Assembly (NCBI GenBank): GCA_963924555.1
Contig: OZ004591.1
Coordinates: 1 to 64,000, forward strand
DNA: 64,000 bases
DNA from: Crambe crambe
Taxonomy: Eukaryota > Porifera > Demospongiae > Poecilosclerida > Crambeidae
Reading direction: 5' to 3'
Positions 16,474 through 64,000 of the stretch are shown here, one piece after another (the first letter of the stretch is position 1; every line of letters begins with the position of its first letter). The notes beneath the pieces were generated by a model that saw only the letters and a list, made by a program, of their open reading frames with translations, had not been told where the DNA came from and made no database searches. The translations under genes were made by a program, and so were the position numbers.

Positions 16474-19400
16474 CTAGCTTAATGTTTTCTCGCAGGTTTC
16501 TTTAAGTGTAGCAACACTTGTAGTATTGCTATCAGTGTTTCTAGGTCGTGCTGAAGATGCTCCCACTTCTCCCATCCCCACCAATCCGTACGATTCATTC
16601 CTCATCATGGGAACACCACCCTCTGCACTTTCCAACGTTTTGCTTCCTTTCAACTCCTCGTACATGGGATATGCTACTGTATCAGCATGAGGCTGAGGAA
16701 CAGACTGCTGGTTTGCATATTGAGCAGGTCCTGGGTCACTTTTGGCAGGCTGTGGGTAGGCATCTGGCTTATCAATGGCAGCATATACTGGATTAAGTCC
16801 AGATATATCAGGCAAGATAGCACTACCGTTGCTACTGAAGGTGGTGGTTAGCACTCTTGTTTCAGAGTATACAGGATTGGGGGTTGATTTCAAGGGGGGA
16901 GGAGGACTGGTAGAGGTACTGGGAGTGTTTGAGGACCCAGTGGGGCCATACACAGGATTTGGAATTGCTGGACCACTTGCAGTTCGCATCTCCTTCTTGG
17001 CTGATTGGACAGTCTCATAAGTGGGATTGGACGGGGTTGTGCAACCATTAGCAGCTTCAGGATGGGGGAAGTCATATGTATTGCTCCTGACATGACGGCC
17101 ATTCTCTGCTGGTGGGTCACAAGGGTCGGCCAGGTGTGGCAGGGATCCCCTCTCTCCATACATGTAGTTGGACTTGAGCTCATCACCACGGCCACCCGGT
17201 GCCAGTCTGAGAGCTACAATAACAAAATTATGACATTTTGGATGCTAGCTACAAAACAACTTACAACGAAAATCTCTTTTCTTTTTTCTTATGTGGCGGC
17301 ATATTGCACACATAACAATAACTATGATGAAGAAGAGGAGGACCACCACTCCTGCCACCACACCAATGATGATATACAGGGTGTCTGCATAACGTACATA
17401 CATATATAACCAAGCACTGAAGTGTTAACCCTCAGCAGCAGTCAGCACACACAGTTGCAATAGTCGGTTGATATTTGCATTACATTTTAGTCAACTTACC
17501 TCCAGCTAGGTTGTTGGGATCAGTAGTCATTCGAAAAGTGGGTACTGCAAAAAATAATAAAAGCACAGTAATCGATGTAACTACACAACTACAAGGAAAT
17601 GCACACATACACCCACATCAACAGATACCACATAATTATATCAGATACCAATAATTATATCATATATACCACAACATAACTAGTCACACTGACAAGAGGT
17701 TTCATTCACTTCTTCAGTTGAGGTGAAGTGATAGGAGGTTGCAGCTGGAGGGCCTAGGGTGGGAGGATTGGTCATACAGGATACCAGAACATGAAACTGT
17801 CGGGGTGCATGGGAGGGGCCACAGCAGGTAAGAATACCAGCCCACTGCAGACTAACCCTCACTAAATCACCACTGAAAAATACATTCACAACAATGATCA
17901 ATCACTTACTTGTGGGTTGAATTAATGTAACAAAAGTGGGTGTGACAATGGAAGAGAATGAGCCATCAGAGAGTATCTCGACCACAGTCACCATCACTTG
18001 GTTAGAAAGATTAGCTGGCACACTGACACTATCAGTGGCAACATCAGCATTAGGTGGATCACGTGTGACATTAACCTGAAATGAAACACCAATGGATACT
18101 TGGCATCCCAAGGCGCTGGCCCCACTAGCAAAGGAGCAAGTAATATCAGCATTCAAAGAGTTGAAATCCACTTCCACTCTGGACGACTGCAAGTCAGTGG
18201 TATCTGCATACACACTAAATGGTTACCAAGTCCTAATTATCATGTAATGACATAATACTTACAGACAATGAGGCTGCTTTCTGAGGAGCCAACTTGGTTG
18301 AAGGCAGTAATGGTGGTATTATACTGTCTACCTGGAAGGAGACCATCACTAGAAGTCACCATCAAAGAAACGGGTCCATCATCCTCAAAGCGAGAAACAT
18401 TCAAGATATGAAGAGGTACCATCCCAAAAGAGTTGGCCTCTTCAACAAGTACAAGAATGTAACGATCTACTCTGTATTCTAGACAGGGAGAAGGAGCCTG
18501 CAAATAGTCACATTCTAATCACACATAACTACTGATTTTCAGAGACCCACATTAAACGAAAACGTGACAGCAGGTCCTGCTTGCAGTGATGTGGTTGTGG
18601 TGATACTGTCAGCTTCCAGATCAGAGGGAGCTGCATAAATAGCAGTGCTATAAAAGGTCATCAGTGGTCACACACTGACAGATATATATGACTACAGCAG
18701 GTGTCTAAGTACTGACCTGAAGGTAAGAGAGTGATATTGCTCACTCCAGATAAGCTACGACTGAATCCATTCTCAGAGTATACAGTGATATTGTACCTAG
18801 GACAGGTCCCACTTTCAAAAGGAGGGGTCAGAATATAAGATGTGCCATTGACTCTGGACTGCCTTTGTTGATTAGAGTCAAGGTTATGAGATATGACAAT
18901 GAAAACTACTTCTTCCCCATTCAGGACAAAACCAGGGTTCCATGTGATGAGGACCCCTTGACGTTGGAGCAGAGGAGTCAGGGTAAGATTAGTAGGAGGC
19001 GATGGTTCCCCTGCAGCAATACCAAATATTTCTTAAGTTTCCCAAACTGTAGCAATCAATTGCATATTCCAACTAGAAGTGTTGCAAGGCATATCTAATT
19101 AAAGAGTCATGGCATTTCTACTAAACAGTATAATGTGAGGTGTCACATACCATCAATAAGTAAGTCCTGCAAATCTGTCTACTTACCATAAAAAATGGCA
19201 GTTACTACTTCACTCCGTTCAGGGAAAAAAATTCGCCCCACAAAACATTGCAGTCCTGTTCCATTATTTAGACTGCTTCCTAAGATGGTTACTCTTGAAA
19301 TGTTTGGCATAGGGAAGGGTGCAAAGATGCCACGACCGAACAAGAAAGCATGAAAGTCATCATCACCAACTTGCAATTGTCTGGAACCATTTGTTTGTGG

Positions 19401-19651
19401 CAAGGCAATGCCCCAAGTGATGTCGCTAGTTGCAGTGCAGTCAAAGGTAGCATTAGAACTTTTAGGTGCCACCACTGACTCAGGAGACACAAGAAGTCGC
19501 TCTACAAAACATATAATACATGAATAGACTAGATCCACTTAAAAGTTGGCACGTATTTATAGCTATGATTACCATCACCAGCAATCACTTGTAATGTCGA
19601 TGTTCCCACGTACACGTATACCAGTAGCAACAATAATCGTTTACAAAACAT
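16474..19651 (-). CDS. Receptor A: Ig-FN3 type I membrane protein, seven-tyrosine tail
   Basis: Nine exons on the minus strand: 19651-19573, 19501-19187, 19010-18717, 18630-18551, 18497-18263, 18203-17910, 17544-17500, 17384-17265, 17213-16474. They join in frame to 733 codons. Exon 1 is a signal peptide (MFCKRLLLLLVYVYVG). Exon 2 is an Ig-like domain, exon 3 an FN3 domain, and exons 4-5 a second FN3-like domain split by a phase 0 intron. Exon 6 is the group 1 membrane-proximal domain (TDLQSSRV, ITCSFASGASALGC). Exon 7 is a short stalk and exon 8 the membrane span (LYIIIGVVAGVVVLLFF) with a basic stop-transfer. The tail has NTYDF, NPTYETV, NPVYGP, NPVYSE, NPVYAAI, YPMYEEL and ESYGLV, which suit PTB or SH2 adaptors. 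It has neither the B/C terminal motif nor YTVM. The start lies 121 bp from divergent gene B. The ligand is unknown. Confidence 0.85.
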
Positions 19652-19772
19652 TCTCGATATTCACAGATCAACAAACTGTACCCTATACACACATGACCTC
19701 GCCCCGGCTTGCACGTTACTGCTCACCAGAGGAAGTGGTCGACTAGAACTAATTACCGCTTATTATGAAAGT
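19652..19772. promoter_or_regulatory. Shared divergent promoter region of A and B
   Basis: Only 121 bases separate the start codons of A (minus) and B (plus), so 5' untranslated regions and promoters of both must overlap or abut here. It contains a GAGGAAGTG word resembling an ETS-type site. I see no clear TATA box. The regulatory role follows from geometry only. Confidence 0.55.
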
Positions 19773-22230
19773 ATGTCGATAAGCATTAAATGTCTCGTGT
19801 ATTTGTTGTGTCTTTGGTGGTGGCAGTTGTCTGATGCTGGCATAGTAGTCTCTCCTCCCAACAACCAGCCTGTCGCTATTAACTCTACTGACAATGTCAC
19901 TTTCGTCTGCAACATCTCTGACACTGACGCTGGGCGTGCTAGTGGTGAGGCTCTCTGGCAGGTGCAGGATTTCCAGATACCCAATGGACAAAATAACGCC
20001 CTCAGGCTCTCTTTTGTAGACTTTGGAGTGATTGTGGAGGAATTGGTGAGAGGAATCACCAGGGTCACTATCAATGGTCAGGCTAGGGAGGCCTATCGTA
20101 CTAGGTTCAGCCTCTCAGACCCAAACACCATCATTGTGAGGTGTATAGCCTCTGCTGTTGCTCCAAACAGGGAACCAATCATTGACACTGGAGAGCCGCT
20201 TTCTATCATCTTGTTTGGTATGTTGCAAACACCCTTTCAGCTGTAATGTGACATTCCTTCCACCACCATTGTCATGTAGGTGCACCACTCGAACCTACTG
20301 ACCTGACTCTGACCCCTAACCCTAGCAATCTAACTGTGCTAAGGTTGAGCTGGACTGCTCCCGCCAACCCCCCACCCCCTGGAGTGGAGGTCACCTATGT
20401 CCCCTCTATCACTGGCCCTTCCTTCAATGCTTCGTCCACCACATTAAATACCTCCATCATTTTCATTGATGATGCTGACCTTGACTGCCAAAGGCATACT
20501 TTCTCAGTCTTTGCCTTCAACCCGGCTGGGAATAGTTCTGTTGTCTCTATCTTTGAGACGATTCCAATATGTTAGTGTCTCCTTACCACTGCACGTTTAT
20601 TAGTGCTGTCTCACTCCCACAGCCCCCAACATCACTGCTCTTAACGAGAGCTTTCTTGTGACTGACGTCTCCCTGGCTGACCCAATAACTCTCACCCTCT
20701 TCTTTCCTGTGAGCTTCTTTATTTGAAGTCCTTTTACCATGATTACTTGCACGTTTTTCAGTTGGCAGTCAGCTGCAGTCAGAACTTCCCCATCCTCAAC
20801 TACTCCCTCTCCATACCGTCTCTCTCTCTCAGGCAATTGATAGTGAACACCTCTGCTGAGCAATTGCAAGGAAATCAAACTAGGCAGGTCCAAGTCCGTG
20901 GACTCGATGCAGATGGAGTATTCAATGTATCCATAGAAGTCTGTATCTCCATTGCTTGTCAACAGTCTCGCTTCCAAGTGATCAGTGAGTCACTTCTGTA
21001 TGAATAGTTACCTGTTTATTGTGTATCTTTTCTCAGGAACTACTGATGTACAAAGTGCACGTATTGTTTTCTTTGAGAATAATATTTATATCAGCTGTAC
21101 GTTTGCTTCTGATTCTAATGCTGAAGGGTGCATGTTCCAACTGACACTGAGCAATGGAGCCGAGACTTTCATCCTGCTTCGGTCTAGTTCCAATGTCAGT
21201 CAGTGTACCCAGACCCGGAACCAGCCTGATGCCTTCCTTGAACTGACGGTCAGTGACAGAGAGAGAGATGGAATGATCGGCATGCAGTCCATTGTCCCAA
21301 GCATTCTGATTCTCAATAGGACGTCCTACATCACTCTGACTGGCTGTTCCATTCCAGAACCAATACCTCCCATAAGTCCAGGTAAGTACTGCTGTGAATG
21401 AAGTGCAGCTCCAAAGAAAGAACATCGTAATTAGTGTCTACCCTTCTCTTGTCAGGAGCCATTGCAGGAATAGTAATAGCAGTACTTGTGGTGGGAGCTG
21501 CTGTAGTCACTGTCGTGGTACTTCTACTAGTGTACCGTGTTAAAACTGGACACTGGTTCAGACTGGAGGGTGGTGATGAACATATGACTGCTAACTTTGA
21601 AAAGACGCTGCTTGTGGATGACAGTAAACTCAAAGCCAAGAAAAAATCAAAGGCATGATACCTATCAAACAGTACTGTATGTTTTTCAATGTTTGTGTAC
21701 GTGTAGGTTGGGGACAGCAGTTTAGGTCATTCTACTACTAGTAGTACAAGGGAAGTCATAACCTTTCAAAAAGGGAGTGAACAAATCGAAGCTTCTCCTC
21801 CTGGTGAAGGAGAAGATACTGATGGCATGCTAGCAAAGCCGAGGAAGGTATGTGCTGTATGTGTTAATTAAGTTTCACTTGGATGACTGTATTAGTGCCA
21901 ATGTACACTTGCTGACACATAATTATGGTTTGTTTTGCAGGAGCAAACAGCTCCACCTAACCCAGATGCAGCTTTCACCTTAGACATTACATTTGACAAG
22001 AAGGTGAAGCTCCACTTGAATCGAGCTCTCATCAAGCGTGTGTTGCATGAGCAGAATGCTATGGGTACCATGAAACGTAACAAACCTCGTAACCAAGTGA
22101 GTCTATAATAAAGCATAAAGATTCACCGAGTATTACCTACTGTTCTTTCATTCAGCAATTGAAATGCAAACACGAGTTATTACCAATTCACTATTGTGAA
22201 GTGAGGGTTGAAAAAGAAGAGGAAAACTAG
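19773..22230 (+). CDS. Receptor B: Ig-FN3 membrane protein with ITIM-like tail
   Basis: Nine exons: 19773-20217, 20280-20570, 20623-20708, 20762-20984, 21037-21381, 21456-21652, 21707-21847, 21941-22096, 22156-22230; 652 codons in frame. Exon 1 holds the signal peptide (KCLVYLLCLWWWQLSDAG) and an Ig-like domain with NVTFVCN. Exon 2 is FN3, exons 3-4 a split FN3-like domain, exon 5 the group 1 domain (TDVQSARI, ISCTFASDSNAEGC), exon 6 the membrane span (AGIVIAVLVVGAAVVTVVVL). The tail has AFTLDITFDKKVKLHLNRAL, shared with C, and ends in IHYCEV, matching the ITIM pattern (I/L/V/S)xYxx(I/L/V). The ectodomain is nearly identical to C, introns included. Exon 6 needs a GC donor at 21653; without that splice a TGA at 21656 ends the protein before the ITIM. 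Confidence 0.87.
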
Positions 22231-22302
22231 CAAGCAGCCATCAACCTTCATCAATAACAATTACTATGAATTAGCATACTAAGCTACTGTACTTGTAGAC
22301 AC

Positions 22303-22308
22303 AATAAA
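22303..22308 (+). terminator. Likely poly(A) signal of gene B
   Basis: AATAAA lies 73 bases after the gene B stop codon and about 50 bases before the start of C, so B and C are packed very tightly. Confidence 0.45.
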
Positions 22309-22356
22309 TAATTGTGGGAGGGTCTCGATTGCTTCCGCCCCAGGCTAGGTCCAAGG

Positions 22357-24781
22357 ATGAATATTGCAAACTGTCTCGCACATTTGTTGTGCCTTTGGTG
22401 GCAGTTGTCTCTTCCGTCTGATGCCGGCATAGTAGTCACTCCTCCCAATAACCAGCCTGTCGCTATTAACTCTACTGATAATGTTACTTTCGTCTGCAAC
22501 ATCTCTGACACTGACGCTGGGCGTGCTGGTGGTGAGGCTCTCTGGCAGGTGCAGGATTTCCAGATACCCAATGGACTAAATAACGCCCTCAGGCTCTCTT
22601 TTGTAGACTTTGGAGTGATTGTGGAGGAATTGGTGAGAGGAATCACCAGGGTCACTATCAATGGTCAGGCTAGGGAGGCCTATCGTACTAGGTTCAGCCT
22701 CTCAGACCCAAACACCATCATTGTGAGGTGTATAGCCTCTGCTGTTGCTCCAAACATGGATCCAATCATTGACACTGGAGATCCGCTTTCTATCATTTTG
22801 TTTGGTATGTTGCAAACACTCTTTCAGCTATAGTGTGACATTGCCTTCCACCACCATTGTCATGTAGGTGCACCACTCGAACCTACTGACCTGACTCTGA
22901 CCCCTAACCCTAACAATCTAACTGTGCTGAGGTTGAGCTGGACTGCTCCCGCCAACCCCCCACCCCCTGGAGTGGAGGTCACCTATGTCCCCTCTATCAC
23001 TGGCCCTTCCTTCAATGCTTCGTCCACCACATTAGATACCTCCATCATTTTCATTGATGATGCTGACCTTGACTGCCAAAGGCATACTTTCTCAGTCTTT
23101 GCCTTCAACCCGGCTGGAAATAGTTCTGTTATCTCCGTCTTTGAAACAATTCCAATATGTTAGTCTCTCCTTACCACTGCATGTTTACTGTGATCATTAG
23201 TGCTCTCTCGCTCCCACAGCCCCCAACATCACTGCTCTTAACAAGAGCTTTCTTGTGACTGACGTCTCCCTGACTGACCCAATAACTCTCACCCTCTTCT
23301 TTCCTGTGAGCTTCTTTATTTGAAGTCCTTTTACCATGATTACTTGCACATTTTCATGCTCTGAAGTTGGCGGTCAGCTGCAGTCAGAACTTCCCCATCT
23401 TCAACTACTCCCTCTCCATACCGTCTCTCTCTCTCAAGCAATTGATAGTGAACACCTTTGCTGACCAATTGCAAGGAAATCAAACTAGGCAGGTCCAAGT
23501 CCGTGGACTCAATGCAGATGGAGTATTCAATGTATCCATAGAAGTCTGTATCTCCATTGCTTGTCAACAGTCTCGCTTCCAAGTGATCAGTGAGTCACTT
23601 CTGTATGAATAATTATTTTTATCTATTGTGTGTCTGTCCTTTTCTCAGGAACCACTGATGTACAAAGTGCACATATTGTTTTCTTTGAGAATAATATTTA
23701 TATCAGCTGTACGTTTGCTTCTGATTCTAATGCTGAAGGGTGCATGTTCCAACTGACACTGAGCAATGGAGCTGAGACTTTCGACCTGCCTCGGTCTAGT
23801 TCCAATGTCAGTCGGTGTACCCAGACCCGGAACCAGCCTGATGCCTTCATTGAACTGACGGTCAGTGACAGAGAGAGAGATGGAATGATCGGCATGCAGT
23901 CCATCGTCCCAAGCATTCTGATTCTCAATAGGACGTCCTATACCACTCTGACTGGCTGTTCCATTCCAGAAAGTGGCCTCAGTCCAGGTATGTCCATTTT
24001 CATTGTAACTTTATAGTTCACTGATGTCCGCTGGTTTATTTCATGCAGGAGCCATAGCAGGAATAGTGATTGCTGTGCTGGTAACATTGATAATTATTGT
24101 TGTGTTAATGGTGCTACTGGTGTACGTGGCAAGGAGGAAAGTTAGCCCCAAGTATAACAGAGTGGATATTCCATGGAGTTGGTTTTCACACAAAAAAAAG
24201 GATAAAGAGGTGAGCCTCGAGAATCTGGTATTTGTGGGTTTACTGTTGCACATAGGATAGTGCTGGTGATAAAGAGCTGATTCCACTTAAAGCTAGTAAA
24301 GTGGTTGAGGATGGTGGTGAAGCCACTGTGATTGAGGAAGTGGATGGTGGTAAAGCTCTACCTGTGATTGAGGTACATTTTGCACTCTTCCTTGATCTCA
24401 CTAACACAAAATGATGGCTGAAATATGTATTCAGGAGACTGATCAAATGACAACTAATCCCAAAGCTGCTTTTACATTGGACATAACATCTGACAGGAAA
24501 GTGAGACTCCACTTGAACCGAGCACTTATCACACGTGTACTAAAACAGCAGGAGATATTGAACACTATGCCTCGCAATAAACCCCGTAAAAAAGTGAGTA
24601 GGTCTCTGTAGACATATTATGTGGTATAGGTATACTAATCTCACAAGCCAAAGTATAATAACCTGGCAGTCTGTATTAAACATCATACTTTACTCAACAG
24701 TCTACATCAACAAACAAGCAACCATTGCTGCCATTAGACGAACTGAAATATTGTGAAGTGAGGGTAGAAAAGGAAAACTGA
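22357..24781 (+). CDS. Receptor C: tandem paralogue of B with ITIM-like tail
   Basis: Nine exons: 22357-22804, 22868-23158, 23220-23305, 23367-23589, 23649-23987, 24049-24209, 24256-24372, 24435-24593, 24701-24781; 634 codons. The start at 22357 is chosen because it aligns with the start and signal peptide of B (LLCLWWQLS). The domain order equals B: Ig-like, FN3, split FN3-like, group 1 domain (CTFASDSNAEGC), membrane span (IAVLVTLIIIVVLMVLLVYV), tail. Exons 1-5 and their introns are almost the same as B. After the SIPE at the end of exon 5 the two proteins part company, so span and tail differ much more than the ectodomain. The tail keeps the block AAFTLDITSDRKVRLHLNRA and an ITIM-like LKYCEV near the C-terminus. 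All donors are GT. Confidence 0.88.
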
Positions 24782-24896
24782 TCTTCATCGTGACCTCTAA
24801 TTACAATACCCCTCCTGCAATTCTTGAAATTTAGATCTCAATTGACTTTATGATGATATTCACGTGTACATTTTAACCAACTAGCTACTGTATACT

Positions 24897-24902
24897 AATA
24901 AA
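24897..24902 (+). terminator. Likely poly(A) signal of gene C
   Basis: AATAAA is found 115 bases after the C stop codon, with another AATAAA at about 24908. Gene D converges from the other side. Confidence 0.45.
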
Positions 24903-24970
24903 AATTTAATAAATATCAACGAGGTTATAAAAAGTGAGTTTCTTTCAACGAGATGGGTGGACAGGCAATC

Positions 24971-24976
24971 TTTATT
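24971..24976 (-). terminator. Likely poly(A) signal of gene D
   Basis: On the minus strand AATAAA lies 13 bases beyond the D stop codon. It is only about 70 bases from the signal of convergent gene C. Confidence 0.45.
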
Positions 24977-24989
24977 ATTTGAATGATGA

Positions 24990-27900
24990 TCAAGGACTAC
25001 TAGGAAGAATACACCAGCTTGTTTCATCTGGTTCTTCCTCTTCCTCTCCCTTTTCTTCGTCCACTTGTGAGAGATGACGACATGCAGAACTAAACTCCTT
25101 TGTCATCTTCAATCGTGACAGGGATAAGATGGACTGCTCCTCTTCTTGGTTGGGACCTATGCTTCCATCTGAACGGGACTGGAGTCTGGAAACTGAACGG
25201 GCCATAGACTTCAGTGCAGTCTGGTTCACCTTCAGCCTTATCTTATCATGTTGAAACACTAATTCACAGGTTGGGGGTCGCTGCGTGGGCTGTAATTATG
25301 TAAGTATCACCTTAATGCAGGTTTCTGAGCCTCACTTTGAGAGGTACAGTGATTACAATATATATGACTGTAGTTGCAACTCCACACGATTATGGAAGGA
25401 ACTACCCAGAAGAAAATAATACGGGCACTTACCAGGGACAAGGAGACAGAAGAAGTGCCATCAGCCTGGACACTGACAATGGGGAGGCTGGCCTGGGGGT
25501 TAATCTTGGAGAGTGAGTGAGCTGTTACAGGCACAGAACTGAACACTCCAGTAGGCTGACGCTTCCTTGCAGGAGGTGTCTGCAAACACATGAAAATTAT
25601 ATGTATGTATGTAAGTATGATACAACTAACAGCAAGTAACAGTTTATTGTCAATGTCAAGGAAGAGCGTGTCTTGGTTGTCAGTTTCTGGCTGTAACTTT
25701 GGTTTCCTCTTCTGCATAACAAGGTGTAAGAAGAGAAGAAAGTAATGGAACATCTTAAGGTAACTATTATTTACGGGTACGAAATTTAGCATTTTTGGGT
25801 ATTAATTTAGCCTTCACCATTAAAGGTATTGTATTTCAAGCAGGAACAATATCAAAATTCACATCATCGACACCTAAAAGATGACATGGTAATATACCTT
25901 CAGTCTGAAATAGACCACAATGATGACTATAGAAATGACCACTAAAGACACCAAGAGCAAGATCACCACGATGGGCACCGCAATTGCCACAGCTCTACTG
26001 TCTGTCTCAACCACCATTTCTAGCAGGAGGGGAGGCAAATCAGGGGAACACTACAAGTGGCTATTACCTACCTCGTACGACCACACAACCAGTTTGGTCA
26101 GTGAATGACTCCTCACTCTCGATCACCATCTCATCAACTGGAATGAGAATCTGACCTACCATACCATCTGATTCCAGGTCCAATGCATATAGAGTTGTGT
26201 ACCCATTACGCTGATTGGCACTCGCATTACACTGTTTGGAACCAAACACTCTAAATTCTTCCGTCTCATTCTCATTCTGGTTGAGTTGGAACCTGAAAAG
26301 ACATCCTTGGGCACTCGACTGATTTGCAAAGAAACAGGTCAAGTATATATTATTCTGAAAGAAAACGACTCTGGCACTCTGTACATCTGACGTGTCTGTG
26401 AAGAGAGGAACCTCACATAATTGTCATGGCATACATGCACATGGTTACCCTGAGTACAAAGCTATAACACTTGACCTTTTTAATGACCCAGCTAGATACA
26501 ATTTCAGCTTCTCCATAATTTAGAGTCTCAAGAACTCACTGAGTGTGCAAGTTGTAGAGTTACGGCAACTTAGATCGCTGCACGCAGTGACACCGATCTG
26601 GAACCGCTGGTCACTAACAAGAAAGGGTAGAACAGAAGAACTGAGCTTGGTTCGGACGAGAGATGTATTGGCTGTGTCCGGTACACTTGAACCAAGTCTT
26701 CCATCGACTGTCACATTGTATAACCTGACAGGAGAGGTGGTGCTACAGGATTCCACAGGCTACAAATAGTAGAGTCTGATTACTACACCTTTGAATGGCA
26801 ATGAATATTAGTACAACTGGATTCCCAAGTGATCTTGGTTAGGCTTCTAAGTACTTTCCACAACCACAAAAATTACAGCTCCCAACAAAGTGATTCATGC
26901 CAACATAAAACAATGTGAGGCTTACCTTGAAGGACACATATACTGTTATGTTGTTCCCATTGCCAAGATCCACCCTGTCTATCCTCAGTGATTCATTGAT
27001 AGAACTAACATTAGTAGCTGAAAAATAAAATCTGGGTAATTGAAACATCATTCTTTATGGGCAACTCTAAAGATCAAAGGAGTGTATGTGAATGTCTCCA
27101 TGACATGTAAGAGGAAATTACATGATCAACAACTCACAGAGAGGTACAGTTTCCATAATAGAAGCTGCAACACTGTCCTGCACATCTAGAGCACTGGCCA
27201 CAACAAAAAATTGAAATACTTGACATCCACTATCAGCCATGCGCACAGCATCTTCCAAAGATTTGATGGAAAGTTGTGTGATGTTAGAGAGGAGTGTAGT
27301 GCTGTTTATGCTTGACGATGTACTATTGATGATAACACTATAGTTAATTGGCACTGAAGGATGAATGTTGGTTGGTCTATCCCATGTCAGTGTGATGAAC
27401 TCTGAACCCTCTACAAGACGCAGATTACGTGGCACTTCAGGCTGTCCTGATGATCACAATCATGATACATTAACAGTTAGAGGCAAGAACTGGCAACATT
27501 CACATACCATATGACCCCACAATAAACTGTCTGCCCAGTTCAATGCCAAAATCAGAGGAAGTGGTTATGAAGGCAGCACATCTGACATTGATCCCTGTAC
27601 TTTGAAAGTGTCGACGAGCATCACTGTTTATAACCACCCTAGCTAGAGTTGCCCCTAAATATTCTATGAAAATCCCCAGCTCTTCAAACCGAGTCGAAGG
27701 TTGGTTCATTCTGATTTGTCTGCCCAGTACTTCCCACACCACCTCCCTGTTGACGTCAGAAGAGTTCGTGGGAGCCATCCCTACATCACACGTGTATGAC
27801 ACATTATCAGTTGAGCTGCTGGATACCAGTTGATCCCTGTCAGGCTGTACATCTATCATCTGACAGCCTGTATATGCACAGTCAATGCATGATTAGTTAC

Positions 27901-28024
27901 GGCACTAGTAATAGTTTTGATAAGAGGTAGCTACCGCAAATTGGATTAGTGTACTTGGATTAGTGCACTCACCAGAAAGTCTTAGCACAATCGTTACGAC
28001 GAGGAAGTAGAACACACCTTCCAT
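24990..28024 (-). CDS. Receptor D: group 1 Ig-FN3 membrane protein, no terminal tyrosine motif
   Basis: Ten exons: 28024-27973, 27867-27508, 27446-27138, 27017-26926, 26759-26540, 26395-26072, 26019-25898, 25711-25631, 25579-25433, 25289-24990; 668 codons. Signal peptide MEGVFYFLVVTIVLRLS, Ig-like domain (VSYTCDVG), FN3, split FN3-like, group 1 domain (SDVQSARVVFFQNNIYLTCF), membrane span (VPIVVILLLVSLVVISIVII) and tail. The tail has CELVFQHDKIRLKVNQTALK, a diverged version of the B/C intracellular block. Where B and C end in YCEV, D ends in SWCIL, so the tyrosine is a tryptophan. Intron 8 is 51 bp, a multiple of three and stop-free; retention would add 17 mostly hydrophobic residues. The exon 8 donor (GTTAGT) is the least certain splice. 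Confidence 0.83.
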
Positions 28025-39104: not shown

Positions 39105-40279
39105 GATATTACCTAGCTAGCCACAATTGCTTCTCTGTTAGCTCCTGAACTATTGCTATATAGGACTCTCAACTTTTCGTCAATTGTTTGCTAGCCTATT
39201 TATAGTTTCCCGGCATGTAGGATATGAACATTCCTCATAGTGTATAATTATAGCAGCTAGTTACTGATCCTTATGACAGAGTAAACAAGTCATCCTTTAT
39301 TCTAGTGTTGATACAACACATACATGAGAATGATAAACTATGCGATACAGTTTATGTGTTTTAGCTGATGCCCACATGGTCTGCATGTCATAAAACATTC
39401 TATGTCAACACACCCTTTACTGAATGTGCATGTGCGCAAGGATTGAGATGCAAAGTTTGCTGGATCTGTAAAGAAAGCTCCTTTAATAATAGCTACCTAG
39501 ACCCACTTCACTCTGTTATCTTATATAGGGGATCTAGCTCTCTCATGCATTGACCAACTCTAGATAGCTAGCTAGCTGAAGAAATAGGAACCTGATGCAT
39601 CCATGCATGTGGCTTTATGGAAGTAGTGCATTTGTAATGCGATATTATACATGCCACTGCGTATGCATTATTATAGTAGCTAACAATAAAGGTTCATGCA
39701 GCAGTGCTCTGCTTGATGTGTTGTTTTCCCTCAAAGGTAAAAATTCTCACAGTATTGTCATTCATGAGCCTAAGGAATGCAAAAGTTTCAATTTGAACAC
39801 AAGTACAAACATGCTTATTCCAGTAGAAAAATCCACCACAAAGCAACCACCAACATCCCATGGGAAGATAAACACATTTTGTATGGAGGACATGTAGTTT
39901 TATCAAATAGCTATAGCTACCTGCCATTCTTGAGAAATTCACAATAATAATTATCATTATGTGTGCATTGTGGGCTATAGAGTGGAACCTCTCAAATAAA
40001 AATGAAAAAGTATTAAGAAGTTGTCCGGTTGTCCCTTATTCAGAGCGTCTTTTTAGAAATTTCTCTGCAGATTAAGTTTACTCATAGCAATCGTTAGCTA
40101 ATACATAGTTAGTTATATACTTCTGGTTTAGAGAACAGATAAGGGAAATTTATAATAATAATGAGTGTTGCAATAACACACACAAAGTGATTACCATGTG
40201 TCACTGATCTTTATAAATTATAGAACCGGTTATTTTATGCACACAATAATCTACAATTTCTGTGAGTTACAAAGTTCAA
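39105..40279. other. No gene seen
   Basis: Upstream of the I start I see AT-rich sequence with TAGCTAGC runs and no supported gene. Open frames near 39595-39957 on both strands overlap each other and have no domain. Confidence 0.45.
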
Positions 40280-52368: not shown

Positions 52369-54828
52369 CTATGTAATGTCAGCATCGCGTAGGGCCCTGG
52401 GGCGATGGTTGGATGACCTTGTTTCACGGATGCATAATATAGATGATCTCACAGCAGCAAATGATAGCTTGCATCTTAGCCAGCTAATGACTACTGAATA
52501 TGGTTTGTTTTCTTTTTGGGCAAGCATGTCTGCTAATCTTTTGTAGAAGATGGTTGCCTCCTGTCCCATTCCTCCAGTGGTTGTAAAGACCAGAGGTATA
52601 AAAACCCCATGTTCAATATCACGAACACGTTGACCATGTGCACGTTTCTTGATGGCTTCATCTTCTTGTAAGCTGCTGAGGTGGGTCCTGAGCCATTGCT
52701 TGTTGCATGTGGGTGAAACACCCTTACGTCAAAATATGCATCTTGAGCAGTGGACCAAAACCCTCTCACACGGATGTCAAGACGAGCTTCATTGGTAGTG
52801 ATTGCTGAACATGAGGACATAAGTTCACCACTGAGGGGTTGTAGTCTAGGTTCGGTGGCAACATTGTGGCATACATTTGTGAGTAGTGAAGCTGTTAAGT
52901 CACGTATCTCATTGTGTCGAATTGTCAGGAAGCCTTCCTTTGGACAAATCATTGCATGATTGGCTGAGAATATTGTACCACGACTGCATTTGGAAGGAGT
53001 GTTGGGCAGTGTCCAACCATAGCGAAGACAAACTGCATCTCTGAAAGCTCCCTTGTTGAGGGAGAAGCCATGGTCATCAAGTGGAAGTACAGATAGCCAT
53101 GATGAGGCTGCCTTCTCTTTGGCCAGGTCTACATGGCGTTTTAGTTGTGAGGAGAGCTTGTCATAGACGATGTCTGCTTGATGTGTCTGCCGAGCTCGGT
53201 TGGATTGCCGTATAGCGGACTTGATCTCTTTGACTTTGTATATGTCTACTATTTTGTCTTGGTTTTGTGAAACAATATCTGCAACTAAGGGGGATGTAAG
53301 ATCAATCGATGCCTTGTAGACATGTATTGAGCTTGAGATTGGATTAGTGATTCCCATTTCACCAAGACGGACTGGAAAGGCCAACAAGTCCCTTATCTCT
53401 GTTGAACATGGTGGGTGTCCAGTCAGGGCAGGAATGAGATGTTGAATTGCATCTTCCAGGGGTTGTAGTAAGGTGGCAATGTTTGAGTCAAGAAAGTCCA
53501 GCGGCTTGAGAGGCCATGAATGTAAGCAGAGTAGGCTGCATGGGGTTGAGATTTGGCAATCGTGGCTAACTGTTTGATCTCCTCGGACCACTTTGTCACT
53601 TTTTTGGCCACGTATTCCTCCTTGAAGGATCTGGAGCCAATAGCAGCACCAAGGTGTCTTTTTCCCTCTGTGGTGATGTTAACACCAGTACCTGCAAATT
53701 GCTGTCTTGCCTTCTCTACATGCTCAGCCTTCACCACGAGGTGTGTTTTGGTAGCATTTGGGTGGTAGCCGAAACCAACACCATGTATTTGCAAGCTGTC
53801 CCAGAAGCTTCTTAGGTCTTCGCACGAACCAGCTCGGTGGCATCATCTGCATACCAGACCTGATTCACATTTGGAACATCAGATTGAAATTTTCCAATCA
53901 GGGGTTTTATAGCAAGAGCATACCCAGTGGGTCACCCTGTGTTGTGTCTTCAGAGGAAGAGATTTCTCCATCACCACAGATGATGCAGCTGATTGGAACC
54001 CTGTATGTGTTCGCAAGTATCTGGAACAGAGGTGGACAGATTGATTTGATGTTGTGTAAAGCAGCATGTCTGTTGATAGTGTTAAAGGCATTGGAGGCAT
54101 CAACTAAGATCTCACGCATTGCATGGATTGCAGCCTCACATCCTCCCTCCTGGCCTGCACACACTTGGAGTGGACCTGCGGCATCTTGTATATTGAGACG
54201 GAAGAGACTCAATACTGCTTTGGCTATTATTCGTCTTGGAACTTCACCAATGCCAATCGGACGTAGCACCTGGGCACTTGTTGAGTGGAATCAATCTGCA
54301 GGCCACGAAGACAGTGAGGTCATCTGGATGTATATTGGAGGTACAAATTCTCATGCCAACAGCAGCGAGTGCCTTGCATAAGTCATGAGAAGCTGATTTG
54401 AATGAGGAGCATAGTCTTCTCCATGTATAAGCATCAAGACCTGATAGCCCAGCAGCTCCTTGGGTATGTAGGGCTGCATGGAGTATGCATTCTGCATCAA
54501 GGTTATTGTAAATGATTGGGTTGATAGATTCTTGATTATCCAGCAGGAGGGACTCAGGGCATGCAGGCTTGCCTGGAGGATGTTTGTCTCTAAGGACGTC
54601 ATGAGCGGTCAGACCATTTGTCTCCGGTATCACATCATCGAGACATAAGACACCTCCAGACTGATCACGAGAGAGGTAGTTCAGAGCACTCCTAACCTTC
54701 CCTTGTGCCATTAGTTGTCTGAAGATATGGCCGTCTATGTTGTTTTTTCCTGGTGCCTTCCAGCACTCTCTTACCGCACTCTCTATATGTAGGGATGACT
54801 CGGACGGCCGCGCGCGCCGCCTATACAC
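52369..54828 (-). pseudogene. Decayed reverse-transcriptase element
   Basis: On the minus strand, pieces in changing frames read as one reverse transcriptase: 54828-54244, 54269-53907, about 53900-53795, 53794-53423, 53591-52533 and 52569-52369. Signatures are RPIGIGEVPRRIIAKAVL, LQVCAGQEGGCEAAIH, the motif with a putative catalytic Asp in VDASNAFNTINR, TTQGDPLG, and WYADDA with the YADD box. The C-terminal part ends in YSVVISWLRCKLSFAAVRSS. I know this as a family common in cnidarian and sponge genomes. Its class (non-LTR-like) is my inference, and no LTR, endonuclease or poly(A) tail was seen. Several frameshifts make it inactive, and the 5' part is missing. Confidence 0.75.
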
Positions 54829-55510
54829 TAATACTAAAGTGAAATTTTAGTTCCCCTGCTTAGACCTAACAAAAGCTACTGTGAGCCTACTACAATGTGC
54901 AAACCAAGTTTCAGGACCAGGGAGCTTACCGTTTCAGAAATACGGCAAGCAGATAAATCGCTAGATTCTTCTTCTTCTTCTTCTTAGACAACCATATCTC
55001 TCGAACCACTCAAGCTACAGCTATGATTTCTGGATAAATCAACTCCAAATTCTATGAATTACGATCTTTTCTACTCGTTGATCCTCGAAAGAGTTGATGA
55101 AAAAGGAGACACTACAGAGCACAGCACTCGACTAATTCAATTAGGAAGAAGCCATCTTTTCTATAATACGCATGCGCATGTAGATCCAATTATTAGAAAT
55201 TATAATATTACTCGGCTGTCTCTCTAGCTAGCTAGCTAGCTAGCTAACTCTAGTCTCGCGTAGCCGACCCTTAATGTCTCATGATAGACTACTTTATCGA
55301 TTCGGGGATTTAGATTCACCACGGTAGACTCTATTTCAGCATCTTCGACCACCAAGTATGACTCAACAAAACACAACACCTTGACTCGATAATGATTGGG
55401 CTGGTATGCTATTGGGAGAACTTCTTTCATCTGTCCCTGCATACACATAGAAGAATGAACTCTATACATAGCTAAAACCATAAAAGAGAGGAAAAAAGAC
55501 CAGGAACAAG
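54829..55510. other. No gene seen
   Basis: The sequence contains a CTT microsatellite near 54967-54986 and a TAGC run near 55223-55244, with TACGCATGCGCATG at about 55168. The minus frame 55559-55236 overlaps the palindrome arm and carries no known domain. Confidence 0.45.
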
Positions 55511-57421: not shown

Positions 57422-58121
57422 ATGATGACCTGCTTAATCTGCTTAATCTGTTGCTTTGGTGTCTACGTAAACTTAGGTACTGGTTTAGCTATGCCGTGTA
57501 GTCTTTATTAAATTTTTATGCGTTTAATACCACCTGGCGGCAGGTATAGCTACTGAGACAGTACCAAACATACCAAACTGCCATCGTGAAAATTGCAGTC
57601 AGACTTCTGGGTCTACCTGTCAGTATGGACCTCTTCTCAATACATCAGTAATTTTGGATCAATTGATGGTCACCTGTACAGTTCCTTGCCGTAGACACTT
57701 GGTTCATGGATTACACTTTCTTATTGGTGATAACATCATTTGTAACCCTAATAATCGATCTCCATCCTGCAATAATGGTGCCAAAATTTATTTCGTCAAT
57801 ATCTCCAGATCCTTGATACAAATACAGTTGAATAATAATTCTAATGTATCTTGTTATGCTTTATATGGAAATGAGGTTTGCTATAGTAATGTTTCAGAAA
57901 TCGATTTTATTGATGAAAAAACCTCAAGCTTGCCATCTACAATAGTAACCACTGAATCGCAAACACCTCCAATGATTATCAGAAGTAAGTTGTGGATTGA
58001 ATTTCAGATTAATTGTCAATCTTTTTGCATGCATGCAGCTACTGACCACTCTGGAAGTATTTCAGAACACTTTAACCATTTTTTTATACCATTGATGATA
58101 TTAACTGTAATCATCTCTTGA
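57422..58121 (+). CDS. Receptor L: small Ig-like protein, probably GPI-anchored
   Basis: Three exons: 57422-57476, 57544-57984, 58039-58121; 192 codons. Signal peptide (MMTCLICLICCFGVYVNLG), then one cysteine-rich Ig-like domain (LMVTCTVPC...IQIQLNNNSNVSCYALYGN) with extra cysteines in CHRENC, ICNPN and SCNNG. A Ser/Thr-rich stalk follows, then a hydrophobic end (FFIPLMILTVIIS) directly before the stop, fitting a GPI signal. Intron 2 is 54 bp, a multiple of three with no stop, so a retained-intron form would stay in frame and add 18 residues. It is the smallest member, with no FN3 domain. It is convergent with M (462 bases between stops). Confidence 0.75.
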
Positions 58122-58494: not shown

Positions 58495-58583
58495 TGCACA
58501 ATTCCAACCATAATAGCTAACACTCAAAAGAAGATTAATGAATCATACAAGTTTTGTGTAATGTTTTGTGATATATTGCTGGC

Positions 58584-59092
58584 TCAGCATTCACTGATGA
58601 TCATGCTAGGCTCAGGAACATATCTGTCCACTTCTGAAGAGTCTCTGTCTAGGCTAGACTCCCCCACTGTATCAGAAAAAGTCTTCCCAAGACCTCCTGC
58701 TGAGTTCATGACAGTGTAGGCCTCTTCAGGTGAAGGAGGAAAGGGAAGGGTTTGTTCATGGGGGTAGGCATAGCTAGGATCGACAGTAGAGTTGGAGTAG
58801 GGAGATTCAATCAGGGGACGTGAGTTTGTGGGTGTGGAAGGAGGAGGAATAGTCCTAAAGCGAGGGTCGATGGTCTCGTAAACAGGCTGTCCCTCGTAAA
58901 TTGGATTGGTGACCATAGGAGATCTCTTTGGACTAGATGTCCGATACAGTCCTGATCCTGCAGAGAAAGCAGGAAATTACATAATAATTATCAAAACTTT
59001 GTGTGTGGTATGGCGACACTTTTTATAAACAGTATGGGGGGGGGGGGGGGGGGGTGATGTTAAATGTCATCATGCCCATTATGCATTCTCGC

Positions 59093-59125
<33 letters not shown>

Positions 59126-62100
59126 AGCAATGAGACATTCCACAAAGTGCTGAATGGTATTCACATCCCCTTATGTACATACTAAATAGATTATTATCAA
59201 AGCCTGTTTATCGAAATGACAAAAAATTTCATTCCAGGAATTATGAATAATTTTTTAAAAATAATGAATATACTTATCACTGGCAGCATTAATCAGACAC
59301 TCACTTTTCTTTTTGTATGCACAACAGATGAATCCCAGCACAACTAAAAATACAGCCACTATGAGTATCATGGCACCTCCCACTGCAGCCAGGGGAACCA
59401 CCAACTCCATCGCTAGCCTTTGCTGTGTCCCCCCTAGTACACCAGAGGTGGTTGGAGATTCTACTCCAATACCTGCATCAGAGATACCAATTTACTATAA
59501 ACAGTTTGCAGCGTGAGCGCATTTTCATAGGGACAAGGAAATTAATTCAGAATTAAGAGATTCCATTAGATATAACATATTCAAATTACACATAATAAGG
59601 GCATGTGTAGCTGTAATTTTGCATGTACTTCATAATAATACTTTGAACATGCTTTGAGTCAAGTATTTTCACTAGTATTTGTGATAGTGCCCATTTATGC
59701 AACAGAGGCTGGCTCATCCAAATGATATAACACATACTATGCGCTGAAGGTTAGCACTTCATTTAATATTGTGCCTTATGTGTGCACTGAGCACTTCAGC
59801 GTTTTTTGTTGTTGTTTTTTGTTGTTGTTACTTTTTGTTTTTGTTTTTCATTTTGACCTGGGAGCTCTTCTTGCTTTGACATACAGATAATTGTTCCCCC
59901 TCCCCACCCCCAAATAATAACATATACCGTATAGGTAGATATTTTTGAGGGATTTTAATTTCGTGGTTTTCGCGGTCACTTTGCATTTCAAGGAATTTTT
60001 AATACTCGAAAAAATCAATATAGCTATATTAGTTTTATGCGCATTAGTCATTACGGAGTACTTTGACCTCGATCTTTCCAGATGGGTCTCTAAGAACTTC
60101 GCCTCAGAACTTCGCTTTCAGAACAGCAGAACTTCGCCATCTGAAGCTTCCTATAGACGTGAAATTCCCTAACCATTGAAAACTGGTCATCCTTCCAGCT
60201 GCTCACGATCACCACATGTGCAATTTTTTTTTACACTGCGCGCGAGCGATATATTGTAACGCATGCAAAGCGAAATTAAAATCTTTATAATCTAGCTTGG
60301 TACTGTGAAATTTTAATTCCTCGAAAATATCTACCCATACGGTATACCAAGTAGGAAAAAAACTGTTATGTAATGTAATATAATGTTGTTCGATCTGCTC
60401 TTACAGGCCTTATTTTCCCCATCTCAGTACCACTTACTACATGCCATCTTCTAATTTTCAGCCATTTCTCAGAAAATATAAATGCCATTTTCTTCTCTCT
60501 ATGTAGGTAGCTATGTAGGTATGTAAATTGACATTGTGCGATTTGAACCCAAGTTTGATCAACAATTTTAAAGGATAATCCAACAGCAGAGAGTCTTTCC
60601 AGCTTGTAAGCTTACACTCGGAAATATAAATTTTCTTTCATAATGTCAGAATACTTCTCTCCTACTGTCAGCAACTCCTAACTTGTAGACAGAACACCTT
60701 AGGACTCTAATATGAAGAGCAGAAGATAAGGCACAGCGACTTCATTTTCATCTGGTCCTTTGTCACTGGAAATAAGCTATTCACATACCACTCTACTCAA
60801 AATTGACTGCGTTATGATCCTTTACCTTTAACTTGACTATACGACATATGCATATTCAACCTCAACCTACAACAAGGCAGACATTATTGCAGTAACGTAC
60901 TACATATAATCATGCTCTGCCTCCTTGATTCTTGGACCTTGACCTCGTGTTTGACTTAGTGAATCTAGCTCCTAGTCTACTGTATTTGCTGTCACCCAGG
61001 GTGTAGTAATTGCTCAAAGAAGAAGTGAGCTTTCTCTCTTGAGGTTGGTCTCTCAATGCTCAGAGTGTTGTGAGTGATCGCTAAAACCTAGGCACTGATC
61101 TGGTTATAAATTAAGCCCTAGGCACTAGTCTCGCTATAAATCAAGCCTTGTTTAATGAGTGCTGCAACACTAGGTATATGCATAATAGTAAAGGCCTTTA
61201 AAAAGTATACTGTAGCTATAGATACAAGCTCCATCAGCATTTGCACAGCAATCTGGATCAGATTTATGTACTGTCAAGCTCACTCAAGGCCCATCAATTT
61301 TGCAAACATTGACTTATTGACGCTGTGACTCACTGATTGTTCGCTGTTCATGGATTGGTGAGACTCCAGACTGATTAGGTAGAGTAAAGTTGGTGTTAAT
61401 CAGAAGGTTCTTGACAGCCTTCAGACTTTGGTCTTCAACTGTAAAGGACACAACTTGTCGTTCAGCATAGAGTTGGCTGATGGGACCTCTTTGCCATATT
61501 GGTTCTCGTCCAGTTGGGGAACTTACACTCACCATATATTGGACTTCTTGATAAGGACACACCACAGGAAGCTGTGTATAAACAGTTGATCAGATATTAG
61601 TGGCATGTGTATTGGGTCACCACAACACAAACCACATACTATCTACTTTAAAATTTTGAAAATACCTATTTTATACAATTTTCTGAAATCACTAAAAATG
61701 ATGAATTTCCCCCAGACATCCACTATGTACCAGTAAAATTGAGGCCTACACAAGACCTTAAACAGGACTATAGGAAGCATGTGCATTTTCAAAGTGGATA
61801 TAGCTATAGCTGCAAACAGTTAGTTCCTAGGCTCATGCAAGTAGCTACATTGTTTTACCTCATAAAAAGTGGGTAGCAAATGCCTACCCAGTCAGACTGC
61901 TTCCTACGGCCCTGTTAAATAAATCTATAGCTACACACACCTTTATTGCCAGATGGATGATGGGTGTAAAGTCAGGCCTAAAGGTCACATTTGCTGAGAT
62001 GGTATCCCCTTGAAGTGTTGGATCTGTAGATAGAGAGGAAATCACAATATGATTACTCTATCATCAATACTATAGTTACTAGCACCATGATTACTATCAT

Positions 62101-64000
62101 ACCATCAGTGATAAGTGAGTCATTGTTTGCTGGGAGCTATAAATGGTGACTCTCACTGACATTACTCTGTAGGGAGTAAATTAGCATGAGGACACATGTG
62201 TGCAGAGTAGAGACCATTGTTAGTTATCAACACAGCTTTGACAGATTGCCTGGAGTGGTAAACACAGCTGCACTGCACAATGACCTGTAGATAGCTTCAC
62301 AGGGGGACTAGAGTAGTCATGAATATTGTTATTTTAAAAATTAATACCAGTTGATACATCAACTTGTGTCAAATCTTTCCGAAACAATTATTAAGAATTT
62401 TACTTGTAGTGGGTTCTGTAAAGAGTGTCATATTGTCCTGGTCAATGTAAAGCCTTAGAATCTCATGGAACTGGTTAGAACTACCAACAATGTTTACTAC
62501 CTACTTAAAACCAGACAGGCTTATTAAACCCACTACAGACGGATCCAATTAAGACTTTAAAGAACCTGGACTTACCAATAGGGAAGCCTCCACTGACCCT
62601 CCCTGGATCTCCATCACTGAGACCATTGTTTGCAAGGACTGTGAATGTGTACTGCCTGCACTCTGACCTTCCTCCACTGGACATGAAGAGCAGTGAGGTG
62701 TCCTTCCATGATGACCTATTCCAGTTATCCATGCTATTGTTAACAGAGATCTTGTAATGGTCAATGGAAGTATATTCCCAAGTGAAAGGAACGTCCCATT
62801 CCAACTGCAAGGCAGAGGAATTGATGGCCCTGAATCTCGGCACGGGAGCAGCTGGGCCTCCTGCAAATACAAATCAAGAATCCATGTCCCTAATTGCTCC
62901 CTTGCAGAATAGGGTGAGGCACTCAAGCTACTAATAACACGTTGAAGAAAGTGCTGATAAAGAAGGACCACTGAACCTTACACTGGTCAATACTGAATAA
63001 GGAACTTGTTGATAAGCTCATAAGGATCAGCTACTCAGGTAACTATTCAATTCATATTCAGTTTTATGGTAGCAATCAACCACAACCTTCCACAATTCAG
63101 GTCCCACTTTCGTTCTAGGAAACATCATCTCATCCACCCTTCAGGATGAGTGTGTCTTTGTAGAAGCCAAGCTATTTTTCAAAGGTTGGTGCTCACAGCT
63201 AGAAACTTACCTTGCACAATGAGTGTGACAGGATCACTGAAAGTTGGACTGTCCACAAATACTATGCATCGTACTTCAGTTCCATTATTCTGGACAGTGG
63301 CACGCATCTCCAGGTACATGTTATGCACGATACTCCTGTAACTCCTTCCCTGCTCTGTAGTCTCTCTAAATGTATAGCTATCACTCGACATGTTCCCAGA
63401 ATCATAAGTCTTTCCTCCTATATGCCATAATGTGTTGGAACCAGTAGCTCTGCAGTGAAAGGTGGCAGTGTCCGATAGATTTGCACGTTGATTAGTGGGG
63501 GCAATTTCGATATCTGTATCAACACATTCATTCCAGACAAATGTAAAGCCACTAGTTTATATGGATGCATGAAAATACATGTATAGACGTAAAATTTGCA
63601 GAATGATGGAAAGCATTAATAAACATGTATGCAGGAAATTGGAAGAATTAATGATAGAACATGCAGTAAGCTGCCAGCTGTTGGGATCAATGTGGTTAGA
63701 AAGAGAGGCCAGAAAAAGTCCCAGTATCAGATAGTAAATAGTTGTCTTAGAAGAGCAATATTAAAAGACAACCATCAACCAAACTGACAACAGGTTCTGA
63801 GGAAAATTGGCACCATTCCATACACACTCCCATGCTTCACTCACAAAGACTAGAACAAGCAGGGACCCAGCAATAGTTATTACGGGGAAAAGAAGAATGC
63901 AAGCCTTGGAACCAATTCCATCGGTCATATGAATTTAAGCTAACTTACTGCCTGCATCAGCCTTGCAACTGTACTGGAGCAACTGCAAAATAGCCAGCAG
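58584..64000 (-). CDS. Receptor M (5' end outside window): group 2 Ig-FN3 protein with YTVM tail
   Basis: Exons seen: 64000-63949 (partial), 63513-63211, 62860-62576, 62023-61941, 61571-61334, 59472-59305, 58957-58584; phases agree. The partial first exon is the end of a signal peptide (LLAILQLLQYSCKADAG); its Met is beyond the edge. Ig-like domain (ATFHCRATGSNTLWHIGG), FN3 (LQLEWDVPFTWEYTSI), split FN3-like domain (CPYQEVQYMVSV), stalk plus membrane span (LVVPLAAVGGAMILIVAVFL), tail. Tail motifs are NPIYEGQPVYETI, SPYSN, SYAYP, EEAYTVMNSAGG and DRYVPE. Intron 5 is about 1.86 kb, far longer than the usual 50-300 bp in this cluster, and carries a small inserted element. Confidence 0.83.
59473..61333. 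other. Long intron of M
   Basis: This intron holds a foldback element (59926-60347) and otherwise AT-rich unique DNA. In the neighbouring M intron before the tail exon (58958-59304) lie a G run at about 59036-59054 and a T run at about 59095-59123. No gene is supported inside. Confidence 0.5.
59926..60347. mobile_element. MITE-like element inside M intron
   Basis: The ends ATACCGTATAGGTAGATATT and, in inverted orientation, ATACCGTATGGGTAGATATT border about 420 bp. A TA lies outside each end. Subterminal GATTTTAATTTCG also recurs inverted near the right end. There is no coding capacity; it is probably a non-autonomous Tc1/mariner-type MITE. Confidence 0.65.

Follow-up and report, generated by a model that had tools for sequence, protein, structure and literature searches.

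Vertebrate paired receptors such as KIR, LILR and SIRP hold signaling- and nonsignaling-type immunoglobulin (Ig) receptors in one cluster, and contactin, LAR and NCAM are long multidomain proteins encoded by few genes. We examined a cluster of genes for Ig and fibronectin type III (FN3) receptors in the demosponge Crambe crambe, in the first 64 kb (64,000 nucleotides, "the window") of contig OZ004591.1 (C14 below; 7.33 Mb) of a 143-Mb genome assembly in 119 contigs (GCA_963924555.1). Candidate allorecognition proteins of sponges, cnidarians and ascidians are not conserved, according to a 2025 review (PMC12065747). As described there, the FF/FcoR genes of the Botryllus schlosseri fuhc locus have low identity and equal architecture, with signaling and nonsignaling genes paired side by side, and their signaling motifs are Y-x-x-I/L/V, the immunoreceptor tyrosine-based inhibitory motif (ITIM) and the hemITAM (PMC12065747). 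In the Hydractinia Alr complex, clusters are formed by Ig superfamily (IgSF) genes and pseudogenes whose overall identity is low, and the Alr1 and Alr2 proteins cross the membrane once (PMC11067881); the word "Fibronectin" is absent from the main text of that paper. In sponges, a receptor tyrosine kinase and an adhesion molecule of Geodia cydonium carry cell-surface Ig domains (PMC12018476 and PMC11999971). Among the papers listed for sponge allorecognition, Ig receptors, aggregation factors, ITIM/FN3 and demosponge Ig expansion (12 of 194 and 12 of 53 for the last two), no title or abstract opening described a cluster like the one here, which is not proof of its absence.

We found that the locus holds a real, coherent Ig-FN3 multigene family with conserved tyrosine tails, tail-less or tyrosine-poor neighbors and continuing duplication, and on balance we are inclined to read it, from its sequence, as a family of type I recognition receptors at the cell surface that is specific to its lineage and evolves by birth and death. 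Ten receptor genes at 16.5-64 kb follow one plan, consisting of a signal peptide, an Ig domain, an FN3 domain, a second FN3-like domain interrupted by an intron, and then a stalk with either a membrane span and tail or an end like that of a glycosylphosphatidylinositol-anchored protein (GPI-like); a gene with a single Ig-like domain (K) and one pseudogene (I) accompany them. The gene finder was trained on the window's own open frames, and unaided it split E into four pieces and H into two and recovered just the 3' part of J. Parts of C, E, F, G, H, J and K were set by eye, and signal peptides, spans and GPI-like ends were all assigned by eye. The members are as follows.

16,474 to 19,651, minus strand: gene A, signal peptide, Ig, FN3, split FN3-like domain, extra exon X, span and long tail with four NPxY motifs
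19,773 to 22,108, plus strand: gene B, signal peptide, Ig, FN3, split FN3-like domain, X, span and tyrosine-poor tail
22,357 to 24,611, plus strand: gene C, recent tandem duplicate of B, its last tail exon set from a profile match and by eye
24,990 to 28,024, minus strand: gene D, same plan with X, tail without tyrosine
29,512 to 32,371, minus strand: gene E, Ig, FN3, split FN3-like domain, stalk, span and tyrosine tail, with several splice sites and the signal peptide set by eye
32,546 to 35,211, minus strand: gene F, same plan, tail with NPIY, YETI, YIAI and YTTM, span exon by eye
35,311 to 36,763, plus strand: gene G, Ig, FN3, split FN3-like domain and GPI-like end (by eye)
36,861 to 39,104, minus strand: gene H, same plan, tail with NPIY, YFDM and YTEM, start of span exon approximate
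40,276 to 41,066, minus strand: pseudogene I, copy of the 3' half of J, with a remnant of the second FN3-like exon (E = 9.7e-7) and the tail
46,001 to 47,817, plus strand: gene J, Ig, split FN3-like domain, stalk, span and tyrosine tail, FN3 exon absent, 5' half by eye
57,422 to 58,121, plus strand: gene K, signal peptide, one Ig-like two-cysteine domain and GPI-like end, all by eye
58,584 to 64,000, minus strand: gene L, same plan, tail with NPIY, YETI and YTVM

The full plan is present in nine genes, and J, the tenth, lacks the first FN3 exon. Exon phases are 1-1 for Ig and for FN3, 1-0 for the first piece of the FN3-like domain and 0-1 for the second (a phase-0 intron); exon X, also phase 1-1, occurs only in A to D, ahead of the stalk, span and tail exons. 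A first-pass annotation had described eleven genes and a pseudogene, all with the same exon plan, at 16,474 to 64,000. The count stands if K is included, and the shared plan stands for nine genes but not for J (no FN3) or K (single Ig-like domain). The boundary does not hold, since L overruns the end of the window (its likely signal peptide is at 63,950-64,000) and related genes run on to about 104 kb on C14.

Six profiles built from these same exons, and hence showing consistency, matched in six frames the Ig domain in 10 genes, FN3 in 9, the split domain in 10 and X in 4; one further match, a remnant at 40.8-41.1 kb, is part of pseudogene I. The reversed sequence of positions 6,401-64,000 gave no match to any of the six profiles at E ≤ 0.01, and gene K matched neither these profiles nor Pfam. 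Two cysteines and one tryptophan are invariant in the Ig domains (10/10), and structure prediction, a check that the first-pass annotation had proposed, returned an Ig fold for the Ig exon of gene F, the exon submitted. An ectodomain profile compared with the PDB matched, among others, titin, contactins (contactin-2), LAR-type phosphatases and NCAM2, including the FN3 domains of titin, LAR and contactin. An N-terminal Ig fold and FN3 after it, the arrangement of IgSF proteins with FN3, are thus both found. Pfam was scanned with ten window proteins (K included, C left out): for Ig, G matched C2-set_2 exactly at the cut-off, L and J matched Ig_3 below it, and the other seven had no Ig family at E ≤ 1; for fn3, A was above the cut-off in two stretches, the better being the split domain, F, G, L and B were below it, and E, H and D had no match at E ≤ 1. 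Pfam was rejected as the only criterion because its cut-offs miss most of the Ig and FN3 domains in these genes. Among the 7994 best candidates scored from a protein collection, the ectodomain profile matched a single entry, an FN3 protein rich in repeats and encoded on a metagenome contig, which at 11% query cover is no useful relative. The X exons of A to D (17,911-26,393) encode a conserved domain with the pattern T-DVQS...C-FA...A-GC, for which the AlphaFold2 model was unusable (mean predicted local distance difference test score 36.9) and no fold was assigned.

Three kinds of C-terminal end are interspersed along the cluster: tyrosine tails (A, E, F, H, J and L), tyrosine-poor tails (B, C and D) and GPI-like ends (G and K). 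The first-pass annotation was thus right that signaling-type and nonsignaling-type members lie side by side. NPxY, YxxM and YxxI tail motifs bind PTB and SH2 domains, PI3-kinase and clathrin adaptors. Compared with 2000 shuffles of the six tyrosine tails, NPxY was strongly enriched (9 observed, in all six tails; shuffle mean 0.29, reached in 0/2000), and YxxM (6, in five of six tails; mean 1.34, reached in 3/2000) and Yxx[ILV] (17; mean 6.25, reached in 0/2000) were also above chance; YxN occurred 3 times (mean 2.58, reached in 968/2000). Moreover, five of the six tails have the arrangement NP-x-Y-x(2-6)-Y-[DE] in common. B, C and D share a different tail exon, with one tyrosine in the tail of B and none in that of D, and by eye their spans have no charged residue.

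Genes A and B have start codons 121 bp apart on opposite strands, and those of F and G are 99 bp apart, likewise on opposite strands. These are the only close head-to-head couples in the window, so that the claim of a partly head-to-head arrangement stands for them alone. In each couple one partner is tyrosine-tailed and the other is not, and shared divergent promoters would probably drive co-expression of A with B and of F with G. Similarity within each couple is low: ectodomain identity is 28% for A/B and 31% for F/G, and the vertebrate-type near-identity of neighboring signaling and nonsignaling genes is not found. Ectodomains are 22-43% identical among the nine genes compared, apart from B/C (95%, both tyrosine-poor). 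G groups with H in an FN3 tree (support 0.89) but not in the Ig tree, and E groups with copies of F in both (0.97 and 0.99). An orientation bias (tyrosine-tailed members on the minus strand, others on the plus strand) gave P = 0.08 within the window and P = 0.03 once three genes beyond it were added; it was noticed post hoc and is confounded by common descent, so we set it aside as evidence.

Close copies of F and H lie together on contig C20. The C20 copy of F (F') retains the Ig, FN3 (a few codons shorter) and split domains, and differs from F by 10 nonsynonymous changes compared to 33.5 expected if one copy were neutral (P = 2e-6, rough Poisson model). However, F' has a damaged span exon and ceases to resemble F about 39 bases into the first tail exon. 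The C20 copy of H (H') has a tail in frame in which MYDS and YFDM are kept, but PIY is missing from NPIY, as is the end that carries YTEM and ALYEDL. A copy of F on C19 retains NPIY, YETI and YTTM. We sought F/G-type coupling elsewhere, but the G-like piece on C20 is a fragment beside H' and is not head-to-head with F'. Judged from these sequences, F/F' and H/H' are the nearest thing here to signaling/nonsignaling twins.

The likeness to the described systems lies in organization. Like FF/FcoR, this is a multigene family with adjacent signaling and nonsignaling members; like Alr, by description rather than by sequence, it has clustered IgSF genes and pseudogenes of low identity. By analogy, its organization would work most like one of these two families. 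In the literature cited above FF/FcoR have Ig plus Sushi domains, with more Ig domains in FcoR, whereas the Crambe family has Ig plus FN3, NPxY/YxxM tails rather than ITIM/hemITAM, and head-to-head coupling that is clear for two couples; no Sushi family was among the Pfam matches of the ten scanned proteins at E ≤ 1, and the FF/FcoR architecture is thus absent from these ten. Alr clusters are described there in one large genomic region, whereas Crambe copies lie on several contigs, and the Geodia proteins are presented as receptor kinase and adhesion molecules, not as a clustered Ig-FN3 family. As in KIR, LILR and SIRP, both receptor types are clustered together, but strict ITIM enrichment, the immunoreceptor tyrosine-based activation motif (ITAM) and a charged span in B, C and D (by eye) are missing, and adjacent members are not near-identical, save the tyrosine-poor B/C. 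Taken strictly, the family therefore belongs neither to the vertebrate paired receptors nor to FF/FcoR. Contactin, LAR and NCAM share the order of Ig then FN3 and the profile matches, whereas the genes here are short and many, with tyrosine, tyrosine-poor or GPI-like ends.

If these are recognition receptors at the cell surface, the outer V-like Ig domain would bind ligand and the two FN3 domains would form a stem. The tail tyrosines (NPxY, YxxM and YxxI), once phosphorylated, would recruit PTB and SH2 proteins such as PI3-kinase. The nonsignaling B, C and D, the GPI-like G and K, and stripped copies elsewhere might bind the same or related ligands as partners, competitors (decoys) or ligands. 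Candidate ligands would be self or allogeneic, microbial or other cell-surface molecules. A role in self/non-self recognition is possible, with uptake and adhesion standing as serious rivals to it. The stronger idea, that the cluster represents the Ig-based complex of self/non-self receptors long sought in an early-branching animal, with divergent signaling/nonsignaling pairs and tail-stripped, signaling-dead copies as an independently arisen equivalent of paired immune receptors, we regard as doubtful.

Several results weigh against a recognition family of this kind. The first-pass annotation had named ITIM-like, YxxM and NPxY motifs; NPxY and YxxM are above chance, as shown above, but strict ITIM is not (3 versus a shuffle mean of 1.50, reached in 382/2000), and the six tyrosine tails have neither ITAM (0) nor ITSM, the immunoreceptor tyrosine-based switch motif (0). 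Tyrosine-tailed and tyrosine-poor neighbors are not close in sequence, and near-identical signaling/nonsignaling couples (F/F' and H/H') occur only across different contigs. Furthermore, the gene finder gave H' as broken models, with exons found but no single intact model, and the C20 copies may simply be decaying duplicates. Finally, diversifying selection is not seen between paralogs. In Nei-Gojobori comparisons of paralogous exon pairs within this one assembly, 21 of 22 had dN/dS below 1 (0.13-0.95), the sole exception (1.48) reflecting one synonymous change. All four exons compared between H and its C20 copy were below 1 (Ig, 0.70; FN3, 0.09; second FN3-like exon, 0.37; tail, 0.13), and clustering of variable Ig residues in loops was rejected (24/50 non-strand versus 17/50 strand positions among four F copies; P = 0.22). 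Thus, the per-exon dN/dS comparison that the first-pass annotation had suggested yielded constraint, here between paralogs.

Coding sequence is therefore under constraint, not diversification, between paralogs. Summed over the ectodomain, dN/dS was 0.16 for F/C20, 0.58 for F/C19, 0.63 for F/C18 and 0.40 for H/H', and, with X included, 0.31 for A/C13 and 0.45 for B/C; F/C19 is compatible with one unconstrained copy (38.5 nonsynonymous changes compared to 36.5 expected). dN/dS was higher for Ig than for FN3 in five of seven pairs (F/C19, F/C18, C20/C19, B/C and H/H') and lower in F/C20 and A/C13. This gives a hint of faster Ig evolution, without dN above dS, and we did not use it as evidence, as the pairs are not independent and no significance was computed.

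The family extends beyond the window. In genome searches we scored limited numbers of candidates, so copy counts are lower bounds, with weaker matches on further contigs, and identities refer to each matched piece. On C14 the related genes are as follows.

66.5 kb, plus strand: Ig-plus-stalk gene (by eye)
70.5-72.6 kb, minus strand: full member with tyrosine tail
75.8 kb, plus strand: Ig-plus-stalk gene (weak profile match)
81-104 kb: three larger Ig/FN3 receptor models

Two of the three larger models were scanned with Pfam, and Ig was above the cut-off in both and fn3 also in one; in the full member and both Ig-plus-stalk genes Pfam gave neither Ig nor fn3 at E ≤ 0.1. More distant members lie at 832-852 kb. 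At 850-854 kb (loci L039-L040) an Ig-FN3 exon set follows NIDO- and Calx-beta-like exons (by eye), in one gene or two merged. Close copies are found inside five other contigs, and the places outside C14 were these.

C20, 2.762 Mb: copy of F, 80-96% identical
C19, 2.254 Mb: copy of F, 81-90%
C5, 1.987 Mb: partial copy of F, 75-91%
C18, 5.685 Mb: copy of F, 62-74%
C20, 2.765 Mb: copy of H, 87-93%
C3, 9.546 Mb: copy of H, 48-93%
C3, 5.368-5.372 Mb: copy of L, 75-95%
C13, 3.947 Mb: copy of A, 49-86%, mostly 83-86%
C5, 4.199 Mb: copy of A, 54-65%
C17, 6.268 Mb: copy of A, 45-70%
C11, 21.4-22.2 kb: tail fragment of A near the contig start
C9, 19.4-19.9 kb: tail fragment of A near the contig start

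D matched on C14 only (12 matches among 20 candidates scored). Ten of these 12 places are at least 137 kb from a contig end, and the two A tail fragments are within 22 kb of a contig start. We therefore rejected a subtelomere-specific family, and with it the confinement to the subtelomere that the first-pass annotation had implied; its proposal of a clustered, duplicating IgSF family is otherwise borne out by the exon plan, profiles, copies, tails and couples.

FN3 matches are also concentrated elsewhere in the genome. Of 2146 FN3 candidates 150 matches were scored, of which 61 fall in a 1.2-Mb region of C9 (2.34-3.53 Mb), and locus L008, with several FN3-like frames and then a likely membrane span, is possibly part of a giant receptor array. 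Dense FN3 arrays lie at C13:3.547-3.573 Mb, C11:1.124-1.132 Mb, C12:0.32-0.39 Mb and C20:2.78-2.95 Mb; several matches in the C13 array score identically, suggesting recent tandem repeats.

The setting of the cluster is a contig end with the following features.

1 to 5,403, no strand assigned: telomere-like array (CTAGCC)n, 900 copies (G strand TAGGGC)
5,401 to 6,381, no strand assigned: 20-bp satellite, 49 copies
28,204 to 29,103, minus strand: single-exon, intronless methyltransferase-like gene (Methyltransf_12, 36.4 bits, cut-off 30)

The cluster thus adjoins a telomere-like repeat, as the first-pass annotation had noted, and this repeat is directly seen at the window's own end. To our knowledge, a TAGGGC telomere-like repeat instead of TTAGGG is unusual for an animal; TAGGGC is absent from the TeloBase main text, and no TAGGGC telomere was among the literature matches listed. 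Five CTAGCC units gave 21,650/18,967 matches genome-wide (reversed control, 0/0) and four CCCTAA (TTAGGG-type) units 1/1, one per strand. The listed CTAGCC matches are all on C1, from 18.8 kb on and not at its very start; by its abundance, the repeat would be expected at other contig ends. A repeat at about 14.5-15.1 kb is common to many contig ends (40 of 584 candidates scored), so exchange among chromosome ends is likely for that stretch. The methyltransferase-like gene sits inside the cluster between D and E and is not a receptor-family member. On the minus strand, transposase-like open reading frames lie between pseudogene I and gene J (42,859-44,633); one of them matches TNP-like RNase H below the cut-off (23.7 versus 24.6 bits) and another has no Pfam match. 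Other open reading frames at 52,536-54,846 (minus strand) look by eye like a reverse-transcriptase element, and the two scanned had no Pfam match at E ≤ 0.01.

We considered that the genes might instead encode engulfment or endocytic receptors that take up particles, symbionts or dying cells. NPxY and YxxM/YxxI serve as adaptor and clathrin sorting signals in LDL-receptor relatives and in CED-1/Draper/MEGF10, YxxM/YxxI also fit the YxxPhi sorting signal, and NPxY is in every tyrosine tail (9 versus 0.29 by chance). However, the GPI-like and tyrosine-poor members retain the ectodomain plan, and CED-1-type receptors carry EGF repeats, not Ig-FN3; we consider uptake unlikely, though worth keeping in mind. 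Local multiplication of ordinary contactin/NCAM/LAR-type receptors for adhesion or development, with no self/non-self or immune role, would fit the PDB matches to titin, contactins, LAR-type phosphatases and NCAM2, the constraint in place of diversification, and the larger multi-Ig/FN3 receptor models that adjoin the cluster. But the stripped tails on C20, the near-identical B/C tandem and the alternation of signaling and nonsignaling members would be unexpected for developmental receptors, which makes this explanation improbable in our view.

A third alternative is that duplicated genes beside the chromosome end turn over neutrally and form no meaningful system; this is consistent with the 14.5-15.1 kb repeat on many contig ends, the A tail fragments 19-22 kb from two other contig starts, the pseudogene and the transposon remnants. 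Nevertheless, the domain exons of ten genes are stop-free, ectodomains and tails are constrained (F/F' 0.16, A/A' 0.31, H/H' tail 0.13), and all but two of the 12 places outside C14 are 137 kb or more away from any contig end. Turnover of this kind is very improbable in our view, and a birth-and-death family of recognition receptors remains the reading toward which we lean. Placing a candidate receptor family on the chromosome makes the question of allorecognition testable in this animal at one locus, and the family illustrates on a small scale how nonsignaling copies of receptors can arise.

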